64,000 bases of DNA from Euryhalocaulis caribicus. Lineage in GTDB: Bacteria; Pseudomonadota; Alphaproteobacteria; Caulobacterales; Maricaulaceae. The stretch lies in assembly GCF_000412185.1 (NCBI RefSeq), contig NZ_ASJA01000007.1, positions 62,001 through 126,000 of the forward strand, in the 5' to 3' direction. The position numbers and the translations under genes are program-made. Below, piece after piece: positions 22,020-52,105 of this stretch (within the stretch, counting starts at the first letter, position 1; every line of letters starts with the position of its first letter). The notes below the pieces were generated by a model that saw only the letters and a program-made list of their open reading frames with translations, had not been told where the DNA came from and made no database searches.

Positions 22020-22150
22020 CCGCCTCGCAAAACCGCACGCGGGTTCGGCCTGACGAACGGAGACATCGTTCGCTGGCCCTTTCCGGTGCCGTCCTCGTAT
22101 TGAGGCGGTGCAGCCCGCGGAGGCCTAACCGGAGAAAAGGAAGAACGATT

Positions 22151-44756: not shown

Positions 44757-46244
44757 TCACTCGTCCGAAAAGCGTTGCGCTTCCGCGGCGGCGCGGAACA
44801 GGGCGGCGGATTTATGCACGGTCTCCATGCGCTCTGTCTCCGGGTCGCTGTCGATCACCACGCCTCCGCCGGCGCGCACGTGCAGCTTGCCGTCTTTTAC
44901 CACGCCCGTCCGCAGGGCGATGCAGGTATCCAGTCCGCCGTCAGCCGCAAAATACCCGACAGCGCCGGCATATACGCCGCGTTCTTCATCTTCCAGTTCA
45001 TCAATGATTTCCATGGCGCGGATCTTTGGCGCCCCTGTCACCGTGCCAGCCGGAAAGCCTGAAAGCAGGGCGTCGATGGAATCCTTGCCCTTGGCCAGAT
45101 CGCCCTGAACGGTCGAGACAATATGCATGACGTGGCTGTAGCGCTCGATCGCGAATTTCTCGATCACTTCCACTTCGCCGGCCTCCGAAACGCGTCCGAC
45201 ATCGTTGCGGCCGAGATCCAGCAGCATCAGATGCTCGGCGCGCTCCTTTTCATCGGCCAGCAATTCCTCTGCATGGCGCTGATCCTCCCCCGGCGTGGCG
45301 CCGCGCGGACGGGTTCCGGCGATGGGCCGGATCGTGACCTTGTCGTTGCGCACCCGGACAAGGATTTCCGGGCTGGAGCCGACCACCGAAAAATCGCCAA
45401 AGCGCAAATGAAAGAGGAACGGCGAGGGGTTGAGACGGCGTAGCGCCCGGTACAGGGCGAAGCTGTCATGCGGGAAGGGGGCCTCAAAACGCTGTGAAGG
45501 GACAATCTGGAACGCGTCCCCCGCCTTGATATAACGCTGGGCTTCGCCAACGATTTCACGATACCGCGCCTCAGAAGTGCTGCTTTCAGGCGTCACCTCG
45601 ACCGGGGTGAAAGCCTGCTTCGCGCGGTCTGGCGGCGTGTTTTTCAAGGCTTCCGCCGCGTCTTCCAGACGCGCCCGGGCCTCATCCAGAGCCTTGTCGG
45701 ACTTGCCCTCCGGCCCCGTCGTGGTGGCCAGGGTAATCTCATGCGCCACATTATCGAATATCGCCACAACCGATGGCCGGATCAGAATAGCGTCCGGCAC
45801 ATCTAGGGCGCGGTTATTTGTCCGGGGCAGGTTTTCCGCCTCGCGCGCCAGCGCATAACCCAGATACCCGAACAGCCCGGTCGCCATGGGCGGCATTCCC
45901 TCGGGCAACTCGACCCGGGTCTCCGCAACCAGACGCCGGAGCGAATCTAGCGGGCCATCCTCCTGACGCGCCTCCGGGCCGCCATTACGGCTGATGAAGG
46001 CTGTGCGGTCGCGGACCGTCCAGACAAGGTCCGGCGCAAATCCGATTGCGGAATAGCGTCCGCGCCAGTCGCCGCCTTCTACCGACTCCAGCAGAAAGGA
46101 CATGCCCTCGCGCCCCGCCAGCTTCAGATAGGTGGAAACCGGCGTTTCCAGATCGTCGACAATATGGGCGTGGACAAGCTGCCGCTTTCCGGCGGCGTGG
46201 CGTTCGCGGAACGCCGCCGGATCAGTCGCCAGCCGGAGCGTCAT
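44757..46244 (-). CDS. trpE: Anthranilate synthase component I
   Basis: Converts chorismate to anthranilate (495 residues). The chorismate-binding block spans about residues 225-480 with [40 protein letters not shown] and [20 protein letters not shown]. The N-terminal [18 protein letters not shown] carries the Ser residue of the tryptophan feedback site. Since its start overlaps the ppiD-like gene there is no room for a trp leader peptide, so control is probably by feedback inhibition. Confidence 0.96.
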
Positions 46245-48124
46245 TGCGGAACGTCGTCGCCAAGCGCGAAGGCGATCTGGTCCGGATAGGTTTTCACTTC
46301 ATATTGCTGCTGCAGCGCCAGCTGGAATTGCGTCAGAAGGTCCTGCGCCACTTCATTGGCCATTTCTTCGCGCGACGGGCTTTCCGCGCCCGGATCCACA
46401 CTGATCTCACGCAGCGCCGCAACGGCCTGACCGCCTTGTGCGGACGGGGCGGTAACCACTTCGCCGGGGGCTGCCTCAAACAGCGCGCCGACGAGCCGCG
46501 GGCCCGCCGCGCCGGCCGTCTGACCACGTGTGACCGTTACCGATTCCACGCTGGCGCCCGCGCCGATATCGGCGGCAATGTCGGAAAAAGCCTCGCCGTT
46601 TTCGGCTCTCTCAGCGGCTTCACTGGCCACGGCTTCCATATTTTCCTGCAGCTGTTGCGACCGCCAGACCTGCTCGGCGGCGGGGCGCGCCTCAGCCAGC
46701 GAGACAAGCTCCTCTGCATTGACCCGGTCCACCCGCACCACGGCAAACCCCTGATCGCCCAGGTCCTCCAGCGCGCTGGTTTCGCCCTCCTGCATCTGGA
46801 AAGCCAGTTCCAGCACTTGCGGGGCCGCCATGAGCTTGGCGAAGGTTTCGCCTTCCGCGCCCCGGCCTTGCCGTGTCACGGGGAGGTAGGACATGGCCAC
46901 GATCTCCGCTTCCGTGGCGGCGTCCTCGATGGGAGCGCCGGCGCCGCGCGCATCCTCGAAGGCGCTGATTGCGTCATACATGTTTTCGATGGCCGTATCG
47001 GCGGCCAGTTCGCTCCGCAATTCGTCGCGAACGTCCTCTATGGCCGGGGTTTCGGCGTCCACGGCGGCGGTGACATCAACCACAGACCAGCCAAAACGCC
47101 CCTCCACTACGCGCGCAGGGTCTTCGGCGGACATGGCAAACAGGGCGTCCGCAATTTCGCTGTCGACAATATCGTCCGCGCTTGCCGCTTCGGCCTGAAC
47201 CAGATCCGCCTCGACGGAATCCGCAACCGCCTCGGCGGTTTCTCCGTCATTGATGCGCGCAGCCACGGCGTTGGCCTCTTCCTCGCCCGGCAGCTGGATT
47301 TGGACATAGCTGCGGGTGGCGGCTTCGGCGAAGGAATCCTTTCGGAATTCGTAGAGTTCCTCGATCTGCTCCTCCGTCACGTCCACGGTCTGTTCAAAGT
47401 CGGACGGCGAAAGCCAGGCAACGGTCACCGCGCGGCGTTCCGGTTGCGTGAATGCAGATTGATTGGAGTCGATGATGTCCTGAAGCTGCGCATCCGTCGG
47501 ATCACCGATTTCTTCCGCAAGGGAGGGTGCAAGGACCAGAACATCGGCGCGCCGGGATTCCCCGGCAAAGGCCTGACGCCGTTCCGCAAAGCTGGCCGGC
47601 GCGCTTTCCCCGGCGGTAACGGCGCGGATCAGCTGTTGGCGGATGATGTCGCCGCGCACCGCGTTCTCGAACTGGCGTTCGGACATTTGCAGTTGCGCCA
47701 GCTGGGAACGGTACTGGTCGCGATTGAATTCGTTCCGAACCGGATCCCGGAAGGCTTCGATGCTCTGTATTTCCTCATACAGCGCGCGATCGGACGCGCC
47801 GAGGCCGAAATTGCCCGCCTGGGCGTCCAGTGACGCCATTGTGATCATCTCGCTGAGAATCTGGCGATCCAGCCCCGCGTCGCGGGCGTCCTGCGCGGTG
47901 AAGCGACCTTCATTCTGGCGGGCGATGGTCTGGACTCGGCGATTGAACTCGTCAGAAAATTCCTGCGCCGTCACCTTTTCGGGGCCGACAACCGCGACAG
48001 CATCGCGGGGACCGCCGCGGAACATGTCATTAACGCCCCAGATGGCGAAGCTGAGGGCAAGAACGACAATAATGGGCGCGGCCCATTTCGATTTCGCGGC
48101 GTTGCGCAGACCAGCAAGCATCAA
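46241..48124 (-). CDS. SurA/PpiD-type peptidylprolyl isomerase
   Basis: A membrane-anchored periplasmic foldase (627 residues). One N-terminal helix (KWAAPIIVVLALSFAIWGVN) is followed by a SurA-N-like chaperone region, a parvulin-type PPIC domain at about 260-390 and a second, weaker repeat to the C-terminus. The whole soluble part is very acidic. The layout is that of PpiD, which assists exported proteins near the Sec channel. It is the first gene of the ppiD-trpE-G-D-C run, overlapping trpE by four bases, and is transcribed away from tpiA. Confidence 0.88.
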   Translation of the reverse strand: MMLAGLRNAAKSKWAAPIIVVLALSFAIWGVNDMFRGGPRDAVAVVGPEKVTAQEFSDEFNRRVQTIARQNEGRFTAQDARDAGLDRQILSEMITMASLDAQAGNFGLGASDRALYEEIQSIEAFRDPVRNEFNRDQYRSQLAQLQMSERQFENAVRGDIIRQQLIRAVTAGESAPASFAERRQAFAGESRRADVLVLAPSLAEEIGDPTDAQLQDIIDSNQSAFTQPERRAVTVAWLSPSDFEQTVDVTEEQIEELYEFRKDSFAEAATRSYVQIQLPGEEEANAVAARINDGETAEAVADSVEADLVQAEAASADDIVDSEIADALFAMSAEDPARVVEGRFGWSVVDVTAAVDAETPAIEDVRDELRSELAADTAIENMYDAISAFEDARGAGAPIEDAATEAEIVAMSYLPVTRQGRGAEGETFAKLMAAPQVLELAFQMQEGETSALEDLGDQGFAVVRVDRVNAEELVSLAEARPAAEQVWRSQQLQENMEAVASEAAERAENGEAFSDIAADIGAGASVESVTVTRGQTAGAAGPRLVGALFEAAPGEVVTAPSAQGGQAVAALREISVDPGAESPSREEMANEVAQDLLTQFQLALQQQYEVKTYPDQIAFALGDDVPQ

Positions 48125-48248: not shown

Positions 48249-49001
48249 ATGACGCGAACGCCCCTGATCGCAGGGAACTGGAAAATGAATGGCCTTCAGC
48301 CTGCGCTGGAAGAGGCAAAAGCCATTGCGCAAGCCGCCGACAGCCAGGACGGGGCCGAAGTGCTGCTGTGTCCGCCTGCGACCCTGCTGACCGATCTGGC
48401 GCGCACCCTTTCGGGCAGCCGCGTGAAAACCGGCGGTCAGGATTGCCATGCCGAGGAATCCGGCGCCCATACAGGCGATGTCAGCGCGGAAATGCTGGCC
48501 GGGGCCGGGGCGGATTATGTCATCGTGGGCCATTCGGAACGCCGCGCAGATCATGGCGAGGACGACCTGACCGTGAAGGCGAAAGCCAAGGCTGCGCGCC
48601 GCGCGGGCCTCACGCCGATCATCTGCGTGGGGGAGAAGGAAGCCGAGCGCGCGAAGGGCGTGCATCTGGACGTTATCGAAATGCAGCTGGATGGCTCCAC
48701 GCCCAAGAATCTGGCTGGCGACGAAGTGGTCATCGCCTATGAGCCTGTCTGGGCCATCGGCACGGGCCGCACCGCGGAGCCGCAAGACATCGCCGAGATG
48801 CACGAATTCATCCGCACCCGCCTGCGGCACATCATGGGCGAAGAGGCGGAGGGGGTGCGGATTCTCTATGGCGGCTCGGTGAAGCCCGGGAATGCGGCGG
48901 AGATTCTCGGCATCGACAATGTCGACGGCGCCCTTGTCGGCGGCGCGAGCCTGAAAGCAGCAGATTTCGGCCCGATCATCGCGAGTGCGCAATCGGAATA
49001 A
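48249..49001 (+). CDS. tpiA: Triosephosphate isomerase
   Basis: Interconverts the two triose phosphates (250 residues). AGNWKMNG with the catalytic lysine K12, IVGHSERR with the catalytic histidine, and YEPVWAIGTGRTA with the catalytic glutamate are all intact, and the phosphate loop ILYGGSVKPGNAAEIL is near the C-terminus. The ATG at 48249 is chosen because homology starts there. Confidence 0.97.
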   Translation: MTRTPLIAGNWKMNGLQPALEEAKAIAQAADSQDGAEVLLCPPATLLTDLARTLSGSRVKTGGQDCHAEESGAHTGDVSAEMLAGAGADYVIVGHSERRADHGEDDLTVKAKAKAARRAGLTPIICVGEKEAERAKGVHLDVIEMQLDGSTPKNLAGDEVVIAYEPVWAIGTGRTAEPQDIAEMHEFIRTRLRHIMGEEAEGVRILYGGSVKPGNAAEILGIDNVDGALVGGASLKAADFGPIIASAQSE

Positions 49002-49026
49002 GCGCCTGTAAAGACTTCTCGGTTTT

Positions 49027-49057
49027 AATCGGGCCAGAGACAGGAACCGGCCCGATT
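49027..49057. repeat. Perfect 9-bp inverted repeat upstream of the receiver gene
   Basis: AATCGGGCC (49027-49035) and GGCCCGATT (49049-49057) pair perfectly around a 13-base loop, ending eight bases before the next ATG. No T-run follows on the plus strand and only A follows on the minus strand, so an intrinsic terminator is unlikely. It would fold in the RNA next to the ribosome site, or could be an operator. Confidence 0.6.
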
Positions 49058-49065
49058 AGGATTGC

Positions 49066-50016
49066 ATGGCTCAAGATCCCGAAAACCTCGCGCGCGTCGT
49101 ACTTTTTGACCCGATCCGGCAGAATCTCCGGACGACGCGCTATGCGCTCTACGAACTCGGATTTCGTGAAATCGATACGTTTTCGGCGCTGGGAGAGGTG
49201 CGCGAACGCGTTGAGGCGGCCGATGTCGATCTTCTGGTCATGGAGCCGGAAGACGATCCGAAGGTTTTCAGCCTTGTTCGCGACATCCGCCACAGCCGTA
49301 TCGGGCGCAATCCGTTTTCCGTCATTTTCCTGACCTGCTGGACGCGTGATCCGCAGAACATACGTCAGGCGCTGGAAAGCGGCGCCGACGACCTCATCGC
49401 GCGCCCCTTTTCGACCCGTTTTCTTGATGAGCGCGTCGCCGCCGCGATCGAACGGCGAAAGCGGTTCGTCGTGACCAGCGATTATATCGGACCGGACCGC
49501 CGCAGCGGCCCGCGCCCCGGCGCCGCCGATCCACGCTATCTGAACGCGCCCAATACGCTGAAGGCCGCCGCCAAGGGCGACTGGGAGGCGCTGGAGGCGA
49601 CCTATCAGCATATCAAGACGGTACAGGAAGACGTGGCGAAAGAACGCGTGCAGCGCTTGTCCGTGCGCATTGCCGCGGATCTTGAAATTTCCAACCCTTC
49701 TTCGCCCTCCGCCGAAATCTCGGTGATTAAACAGGCCCGTGAGCTTGAGCGCCTGGCGGAGCGAGTCGGTCCGGAAACGGCAAGCATCGCCAAGGCCCTG
49801 ACCAAATCCCTGACAGACGGGGAGGCGGGCGCACCCGGAAAGCGCTGGCGAGTCGCGCGTGAACTCGCGCACGGCGTTTGCGTATCCTCAGGCCATGGCG
49901 ACTCTTCCGCGTCGGAGGAAATCGACCGACTTGTGGGCAAGCTGCGTGAGAAACAGGATTCTGTTGCGAAAGATGGTGGCCTTGAGAAGCAGAAAGGCCT
50001 ACATAGCGCCGCTTGA
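49066..50016 (+). CDS. Degenerate receiver-domain protein with helical C-terminus
   Basis: 316 residues. Residues 8-130 fold like a CheY receiver: acidic D15 (VVLFD), T90 (VIFLT) and R113 in IARPF where lysine is normal. The phosphorylation position reads DLLVME, so the acceptor aspartate is replaced by E60. After a basic GPDRRS linker (142-147) comes a charged, helical C-terminal half with no recognised DNA-binding or enzymatic domain. It lies between tpiA and secG, which are usually adjacent. I infer a phosphorylation-independent, scaffold-like response regulator; its partner is unknown. Confidence 0.75.
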   Translation: MAQDPENLARVVLFDPIRQNLRTTRYALYELGFREIDTFSALGEVRERVEAADVDLLVMEPEDDPKVFSLVRDIRHSRIGRNPFSVIFLTCWTRDPQNIRQALESGADDLIARPFSTRFLDERVAAAIERRKRFVVTSDYIGPDRRSGPRPGAADPRYLNAPNTLKAAAKGDWEALEATYQHIKTVQEDVAKERVQRLSVRIAADLEISNPSSPSAEISVIKQARELERLAERVGPETASIAKALTKSLTDGEAGAPGKRWRVARELAHGVCVSSGHGDSSASEEIDRLVGKLREKQDSVAKDGGLEKQKGLHSAA

Positions 50017-50053: not shown

Positions 50054-50407
50054 ATGCATACCCTTCTACTGTTGATACATTTCTTCCTGTCCGCAGGACT
50101 TATCGGTCTGATTCTGCTGCAGCGCTCCGAAGGCGGGGCGCTTGGCATGGGCGGTGGTCCGGGCGGCCTGATGAGTGGACGCGGCGCAGCCAGCCTGCTG
50201 ACGCGAAGCACGTCGATTCTGGCGGCCGGCTTTTTCATCACCAGCATCCTGCTGACCGTTATCGGCAACCGTGGCGCGCCTTCCAGCGTGGTGGACCGGG
50301 TCAGCTCGCCGACAACGACTCAGGAAACGTCTCCCGCCGATTTTCTCTCCGAGGGAGAGGCGACGGAAAACGAGACGCCCGAGCCGGTGATTCCCGAACA
50401 AGAGTAG
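50054..50407 (+). CDS. secG: Preprotein translocase subunit SecG
   Basis: Small SecYEG subunit (117 residues) with two transmembrane helices, LLLLIHFFLSAGLIGLILLQ and STSILAAGFFITSILLTVIG, separated by the Gly-rich cytoplasmic loop SEGGALGMGGGPGGLMSGRG. The C-terminal tail is acidic and Thr/Ser-rich. Position before pyrG is the usual alphaproteobacterial one. Confidence 0.94.
   Translation: MHTLLLLIHFFLSAGLIGLILLQRSEGGALGMGGGPGGLMSGRGAASLLTRSTSILAAGFFITSILLTVIGNRGAPSSVVDRVSSPTTTQETSPADFLSEGEATENETPEPVIPEQE

Positions 50408-52105
<1,698 letters not shown>

Follow-up and report, generated by a model that had tools for sequence, protein, structure and literature searches.

The window, as we term the whole stretch of 64,000 nucleotides that was analysed, encodes a pseudo-receiver protein of 316 aa (49066..50016, + strand, delineated by its open reading frame and its relatives), which is best read as a variant of the Cle-type pseudo-receivers rather than as a response regulator locked by a glutamate. 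Alignments and a structure model together show a predicted receiver fold that has lost its acceptor, its lysine, and its second metal-binding acid, a closeness to Cle-type receivers, a single copy of their Arg-rich motif, and a conserved helical domain. The explanation that we favor, with a rough probability of 0.4, is that of a Cle-derived, phosphorylation-independent switch that would bind c-di-GMP through the remaining half of an Arg-rich site and act through its helical part.

The first-pass annotation had described a receiver encoded at 49066-50016. The reading frame has exactly these ends, and the domain was confirmed by Pfam, a profile search, and an overlay of the AlphaFold model. The receiver domain spans residues 9-130 (49090..49455, + strand, as for all features within this gene) and has a CheY fold. 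The Pfam Response_reg match (residues 16-124, E 2.1e-5) reaches 25.1 bits, below the cut-off of 30.2 bits, and NCBIfam and Pfam scans of the window protein yielded weak receiver matches only, all of them below the cut-offs. A profile of 75 family members matched solved natural receivers of the CheY/OmpR type at 1e-12 to 1e-15, with a designed protein as its top row (3.9e-19; both among the best 60 of 242). The AlphaFold model, which was built from the 75-row family alignment, has a mean pLDDT of 91.2 and a pTM of 0.87, and its residues 6-132 overlay CheY with a Z of 16.7 and an rmsd of 2.0 over 125 aligned residues.

The catalytic columns were placed by alignments of the profile to CheY as well as by a second alignment, which combined seven short receivers and the window protein, and both alignments agree with the first-pass annotation that D15 and T90 (49333..49335) are kept, that the phospho-acceptor position is taken by E60 (49243..49245), and that R113 (49402..49404) stands at the position of the conserved Lys. 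The latter column holds R in all 41 syntenic rows, i.e., those from loci with the gene order described below, and K in 53 of the 65 others. What had been overlooked is the second, directly metal-binding acid of the DD pair, which is replaced by P16 next to the retained D15 (49108..49113; alignments and column counts). An acceptor Asp elsewhere in the domain, which had been named as the finding that would overturn this assignment, was looked for, and the family members with an Asp carry it in the same column as E60. Thus, instead of the canonical response regulator set (Asp acceptor, DD, Thr/Ser, and Lys), the protein has E60, P16, and R113. A pseudo-receiver, as defined in the available excerpts of a 2025 review (PMC12632262), matches the receiver family while one or more of DD, D, T, and K are missing; in the window protein, the acceptor D, the K, and one D of the DD pair (the second) are all absent. 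Judged from these alignments, the receiver of the window protein has no phosphorylation site that could still be used.

By far the most conserved part of the protein, which the first-pass annotation had not mentioned, is a half Arg-rich (ARR-like) motif at residues 131-146 (RKRFVVTSDYIGPDRR; 49456..49503), recognized by its conservation and a match to the structure entry 6sft, with the core YIGPDRR at residues 140-146 (49483-49503). Across 106 rows (matches of at least 70 bits out of 126 open reading frames, the window protein standing in for L001), the weighted mean entropy is 0.41 bits for this segment, compared to 2.37 bits for the receiver and 2.77-2.88 bits for the C-terminal parts, and it overlaps each of the eight top-ranked 16-residue stretches listed. 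R145 is found in 106/106 rows and R146 in 98/106, position 131 is R in 105/106, and position 132, a K in the window protein, holds K in 99 rows and R in 4. The half-motif directly follows helix 5 (117-129), so that the order of receiver and Arg-rich region is retained, with one copy only. Conservation of the motif is inflated in the 80 loci that were collected partly with the peptide FVVTSDYI, since this peptide was among the seeds. A less biased check applied a profile of the receiver alone to 30 further genomes from the class, which had themselves originally been picked from 60 other long-form genomes via a match to the whole-family profile, and 28 of the 30 genes carry [YF]xGPx[RK]R after the receiver. 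Among 25 loci of relatives, 20 fit this pattern and the other five read GPDRG. A second copy of the motif was found in none of these 55 loci (30 class genomes and 25 relatives), and a search of the 75 rows for another [YF/WH]xGP returned one row, where it lies 71 residues away and is unlike the motif.

Searching residues 129-165 against 177,635 solved sequences at E-values up to 10 resulted in one match, the CleD peptide of 6sft (E 0.71, which is weak), and the tail of a Cle-like paralogue from the same genome retrieved the same single entry at 5.7e-5. The Cle proteins CleA-E of Caulobacter crescentus harbor a c-di-GMP-binding Arg-rich region with a tandem motif, as stated in the available excerpts of Nesper et al. 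(PMC5677366). Residues 131-146 of the window protein occupy the place of this region and agree with its first half. According to the same excerpts, CleD binds c-di-GMP via this tandem motif, the R156A exchange strongly reduces or abolishes binding, and R169A weakens it about five-fold (PMC5677366). Numbering offsets tried on 6sft suggest that R156 and R169 are the last residues of the two motif copies. R146 would then be the counterpart of R156, while R169 would be without one, and since R146 matches R156 and nothing matches R169, the family appears to keep the more important half of the site. As an observation on the family itself, the loci L109-L113 (family f4) read GPDRG instead of GPDRR and have lost the counterpart of R156.

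Closeness to the Cle proteins is also seen when the motif is left out: with the receiver-only profile, the two top-ranked among 27 further receivers that were matched in the genome are Cle-like proteins (3.1e-17 and 1.3e-15). The first is the paralogue whose tail retrieved 6sft, and the second has a more degenerate tail, GPCRRRR. An Arg in helix 4, probably equivalent to R113 of CleD, is present in seven of seven short Cle-like proteins and absent here, the aligned residue being L103 in the window protein and I, V, A, M, or L in 99/106 rows. Because neither the tandem motif nor the helix-4 Arg is found, we have not filed the protein as a member of the Cle family. The short Cle-like proteins themselves kept the second motif copy in L002 only, and it is degenerate in the other six of the seven (L003, L040, and L114-L117); hence, short forms may not generally have the published tandem motif. 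The genome of the window has 4 matches to GGDEF (diguanylate cyclase domains) and FliM. It also encodes a second long form (L004, C6:118589-119311), which consists of a receiver, a degenerate tail (FKGHCRRRRR), and about 100 more residues.

Beyond the half-motif, an invariant Pro-Asn at residues 162-163 (49549..49554; each residue in 106/106 rows) opens a helical C-terminal domain (residues 164-315; 49555..50010), which is modelled with helices at 164-169, 173-208, 214-234, 236-250, 257-277, 279-302, and 306-315. The first-pass annotation had predicted a helical C-terminal half without a known output domain, which is in line with the AlphaFold model and with a Pfam scan (E 0.01) that assigned no family to this half of the window protein. 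Among 71 members, C-terminal Pfam matches were scattered over four families with 1 or 2 members each. A C-terminal sequence profile against solved structures gave a designed protein as its best match (E 0.0048), the domain alone reached a best E of 0.029 with Foldseek, and VIA returned Z values of up to 12.4 (7t2y, a designed bundle), which is within the range of common helical arrangements. The whole model retrieved PorX and receivers with Foldseek (best E 4.6e-5, TM 0.32 of the query), matches that we read as driven by the receiver part. Five members (L027, L033, L034, L050, and L062) extend by roughly 200-350 further C-terminal residues, for which Pfam gave no convincing match beyond the receiver.

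The gene is located between tpiA (48249..49001, + strand; PF00121, 6e-88) and secG (50054..50407, + strand; PF03840, 4.8e-16). The next gene after secG (50474..52105, + strand), an open reading frame that we take to encode CTP synthase (pyrG), has homologues downstream in 39 of 41 syntenic loci. Upstream of tpiA, a divergent gene (46241..48124, - strand; open reading frame and neighbor comparison) is presumably PpiD/SurA-like. Within one clade, 38 of 41 rows have the pseudo-receiver gene flanked immediately by tpiA and secG; of the remaining three loci, two (L017 and L108) break off at the gene on one of its sides, and in the third, L104, secG follows the gene, with tpiA absent from the stretch compared. 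The 35 relatives without an orthologue serve for comparison; tpiA was sought in 30 of them (G049, G052, G053, G058, and G060 were left out) and its locus obtained for 28, with secG within about 250 bases in 13 loci, about 1 kb off in 3, and outside the compared stretch in 12. Therefore, the first-pass annotation was right to regard the position as special, given that secG adjoins tpiA in 13/28 loci of relatives without the gene, but its label of an insertion is misleading, as 38/41 rows of the clade have the gene at this very site, of which it is an old resident. The clade may reach past a single order, as seven of the loci (L016, L018-L022, and L025) are from metagenome assemblies with titles that read just "Alphaproteobacteria bacterium". 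Other loci, titled Rhodospirillales, Rhodospirillaceae, or similar, encode the same kind of protein elsewhere and without widely shared neighbors. In 63 loci outside the tpiA-secG clade, no conserved operon partner stood out: the largest neighbor cluster was the gene itself (63), followed by minus-strand frames (46), which we read as antisense of the pseudo-receiver gene, and the next clusters covered 13 and 10 loci.

The gap between tpiA and the gene contains a hairpin at 49026-49058 (stem TAATCGGGCC/GGCCCGATTA), the 3' arm of which enters the probable ribosome site AGGA. Compared to shuffled sequences, it has a z of -1.46, with 13 of 200 shuffles as good, and no conserved sequence was seen in the corresponding gaps of 13 relatives. 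Elsewhere in the window, positions 22034-22146 match the Rfam rpsB sRNA (RF01815) with 40.6 bits at a gathering score of 40.

Within the class, the long form was found in at least 61 of 387 sampled genomes (best E 1e-45 or better), a lower bound since scoring was limited to the top 5 candidates of each genome, with the 1e-45 split between long and short forms being our own. Two family copies lie side by side in one assembly in L023, L042, and L180/L208, and 5 Azospirillum plasmid records hold a partial relative, two of which are annotated as "response regulator". Among 61 relatives, FliM is encoded in all 26 genomes with the gene and in 10 of the 35 without it. On a tree of 53 genomes, which leaves out 7 genomes without a tpiA locus and G006 (locus without tpiA), this corresponds to 3 versus 4 changes and 3 independent pairs (sign test p 1); with so few events, the co-occurrence shows no coupling and is confounded by descent. 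Across the class, 54/61 long-form genomes encode FliM compared to 163/326 others (Fisher 6e-9, uncorrected for descent), and 7/61 long-form genomes lack it. Genomes with shorter matches only look alike in this respect (67/79, compared to 96/247 with neither). GGDEF domains are encoded in 61/61 relatives and thus cannot discriminate. A role in motility would be a guess.

The first-pass annotation had remarked that Glu often mimics the phosphorylated state. That E60, as a stand-in for the phosphorylated Asp, keeps the receiver permanently active is an explanation that we now regard as improbable. Glu is indeed the commonest replacement and can serve as a phosphomimetic in many response regulators, as noted in the excerpts of the review, which also report cases where tests by replacement refuted this idea (PMC12632262). 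The acceptor column holds D in 56, E in 42, and other residues in 8 of the 106 rows. E predominates in the 41 tpiA-secG rows (E 36, D 5), in 38 of which T90 is kept, and D in the remaining 65 rows (D 51, E 6, other 8). On a tree built without the acceptor column, the syntenic rows (38 distinct ones among the 41, as several species occur in both collections) form one side of a branch with an SH-aLRT of 86 (not starred), and the distribution of D and E needs 8 changes. Moreover, the Lys expected to bind the mimic is Arg in 41/41 syntenic rows, and the aromatic residue at K-3 is replaced by L, V, I, or M in 106/106 rows. The Lys has been given up permanently, whereas Asp and Glu go on alternating at the acceptor position, a pattern that does not resemble selection for a Glu mimic. 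Furthermore, CleD has a Glu at its acceptor site, and its E70A allele was reported to be fully functional (PMC5677366, excerpts), which argues against mimicry. Even less probable, in our view, is a role as a decoy in a chemotaxis complex or phosphorelay, in which the C-terminal bundle would be the eroded remnant of an Hpt/CheA-P1-like domain. The bundle does overlay CheA P1 (1i5n; Z 9.8, with an rmsd of 2.3 over 94 aligned residues) as well as further Hpt domains, but such Z values are common for helical bundles, the designed 7t2y ranks higher with its Z of 12.4, the 71 rows contain no column with His in 90% or more of them, and the best E from Foldseek is just the 0.029 mentioned above.

A more serious alternative, which we hold tentatively to be nearly as likely as our best reading, takes residues 131-146 to be a structural clamp that joins the receiver to the bundle, with a look inherited from Cle proteins and c-di-GMP binding lost. 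The protein would then be a constitutive scaffold, or it would be regulated by its abundance, by partner binding, or by its oligomer state. In favor of a clamp, the model confidently gives the segment a pair of short strands (134-136 and 141-143; block pLDDT 92), one half of the site has disappeared and the helix-4 Arg is lost, and R146 is missing from one clade (L109-L113). In addition, positions that are not part of the Cle consensus vary just as little; this concerns FVVTSD, the strong conservation of which fits a structural role. On the other hand, paired Arg residues as constant as R145 (106/106) and R146 (98/106), together with a fixed Gly-Pro, are more than a linker seems to need, and the fixed residues match the part of CleD that matters most for the ligand. 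The favored reading of a Cle-derived switch would have the protein switch without phosphorylation, with the half Arg-rich site contacting c-di-GMP. Because one copy amounts to half of the CleD tandem site, we propose that a second protomer, or another part of the protein, would supply what is missing from the full ligand site. Binding of c-di-GMP may then alter how the receiver and the helical bundle meet, and the bundle would make the output contact with a partner, perhaps in motility or surface behavior as for the Cle proteins. A wider version of this idea appears doubtful at present, namely a class of alphaproteobacterial pseudo-receivers with a split c-di-GMP site, in which each protomer would contribute a half-motif, a c-di-GMP dimer would join two of them, the bundle would be a new output, and the receiver would serve as a phosphorylation-free scaffold.

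Literature searches with the peptide YIGPDRR gave no match, those with GPDRR gave matches that were judged unrelated by their titles and abstracts, and among the matches listed, none was recognized as describing the long form. As in the bacterial pseudo-receivers and atypical response regulators covered by the review excerpts, three of five catalytic residues are missing, and the exchanges of D to Glu and K to Arg are common replacements (PMC12632262). Unlike the examples given there, which have DNA-binding, kinase, or other known outputs, the window protein continues beyond its receiver with an Arg-rich motif and a helical bundle that is unclassified. The same excerpts call the on/off switching of pseudo-receivers a mystery (PMC12632262), and the family offers a testable answer for one group of them, i.e., that a ligand motif replaced phosphorylation. 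A precedent is ShkA of C. crescentus, an alphaproteobacterial pseudo-receiver under c-di-GMP control, as would apply to the window protein; ShkA binds c-di-GMP on the alpha4-beta5-alpha5 face within a hybrid kinase (PMC12632262, excerpts), whereas the window protein has no kinase and its Arg-rich segment lies outside the receiver. With the Cle proteins, it shares a CheY-like receiver directly followed by a [YF]xGP[DE][RK]R motif and, with CleD, a Glu in place of the acceptor; the flagellar switch is where CleA and CleD act, and phosphorylation was reported to be dispensable for both (PMC5677366, excerpts). It differs from them in that the motif is present in one copy rather than in tandem, the helix-4 Arg is absent, the position of the flanking Arg is probably taken by a Lys (K132, next to R131), the second metal-binding acid is a Pro, and a helical C-terminal domain of about 150 residues follows. 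With this long form, the Cle idea would no longer be confined to short proteins of a single domain.
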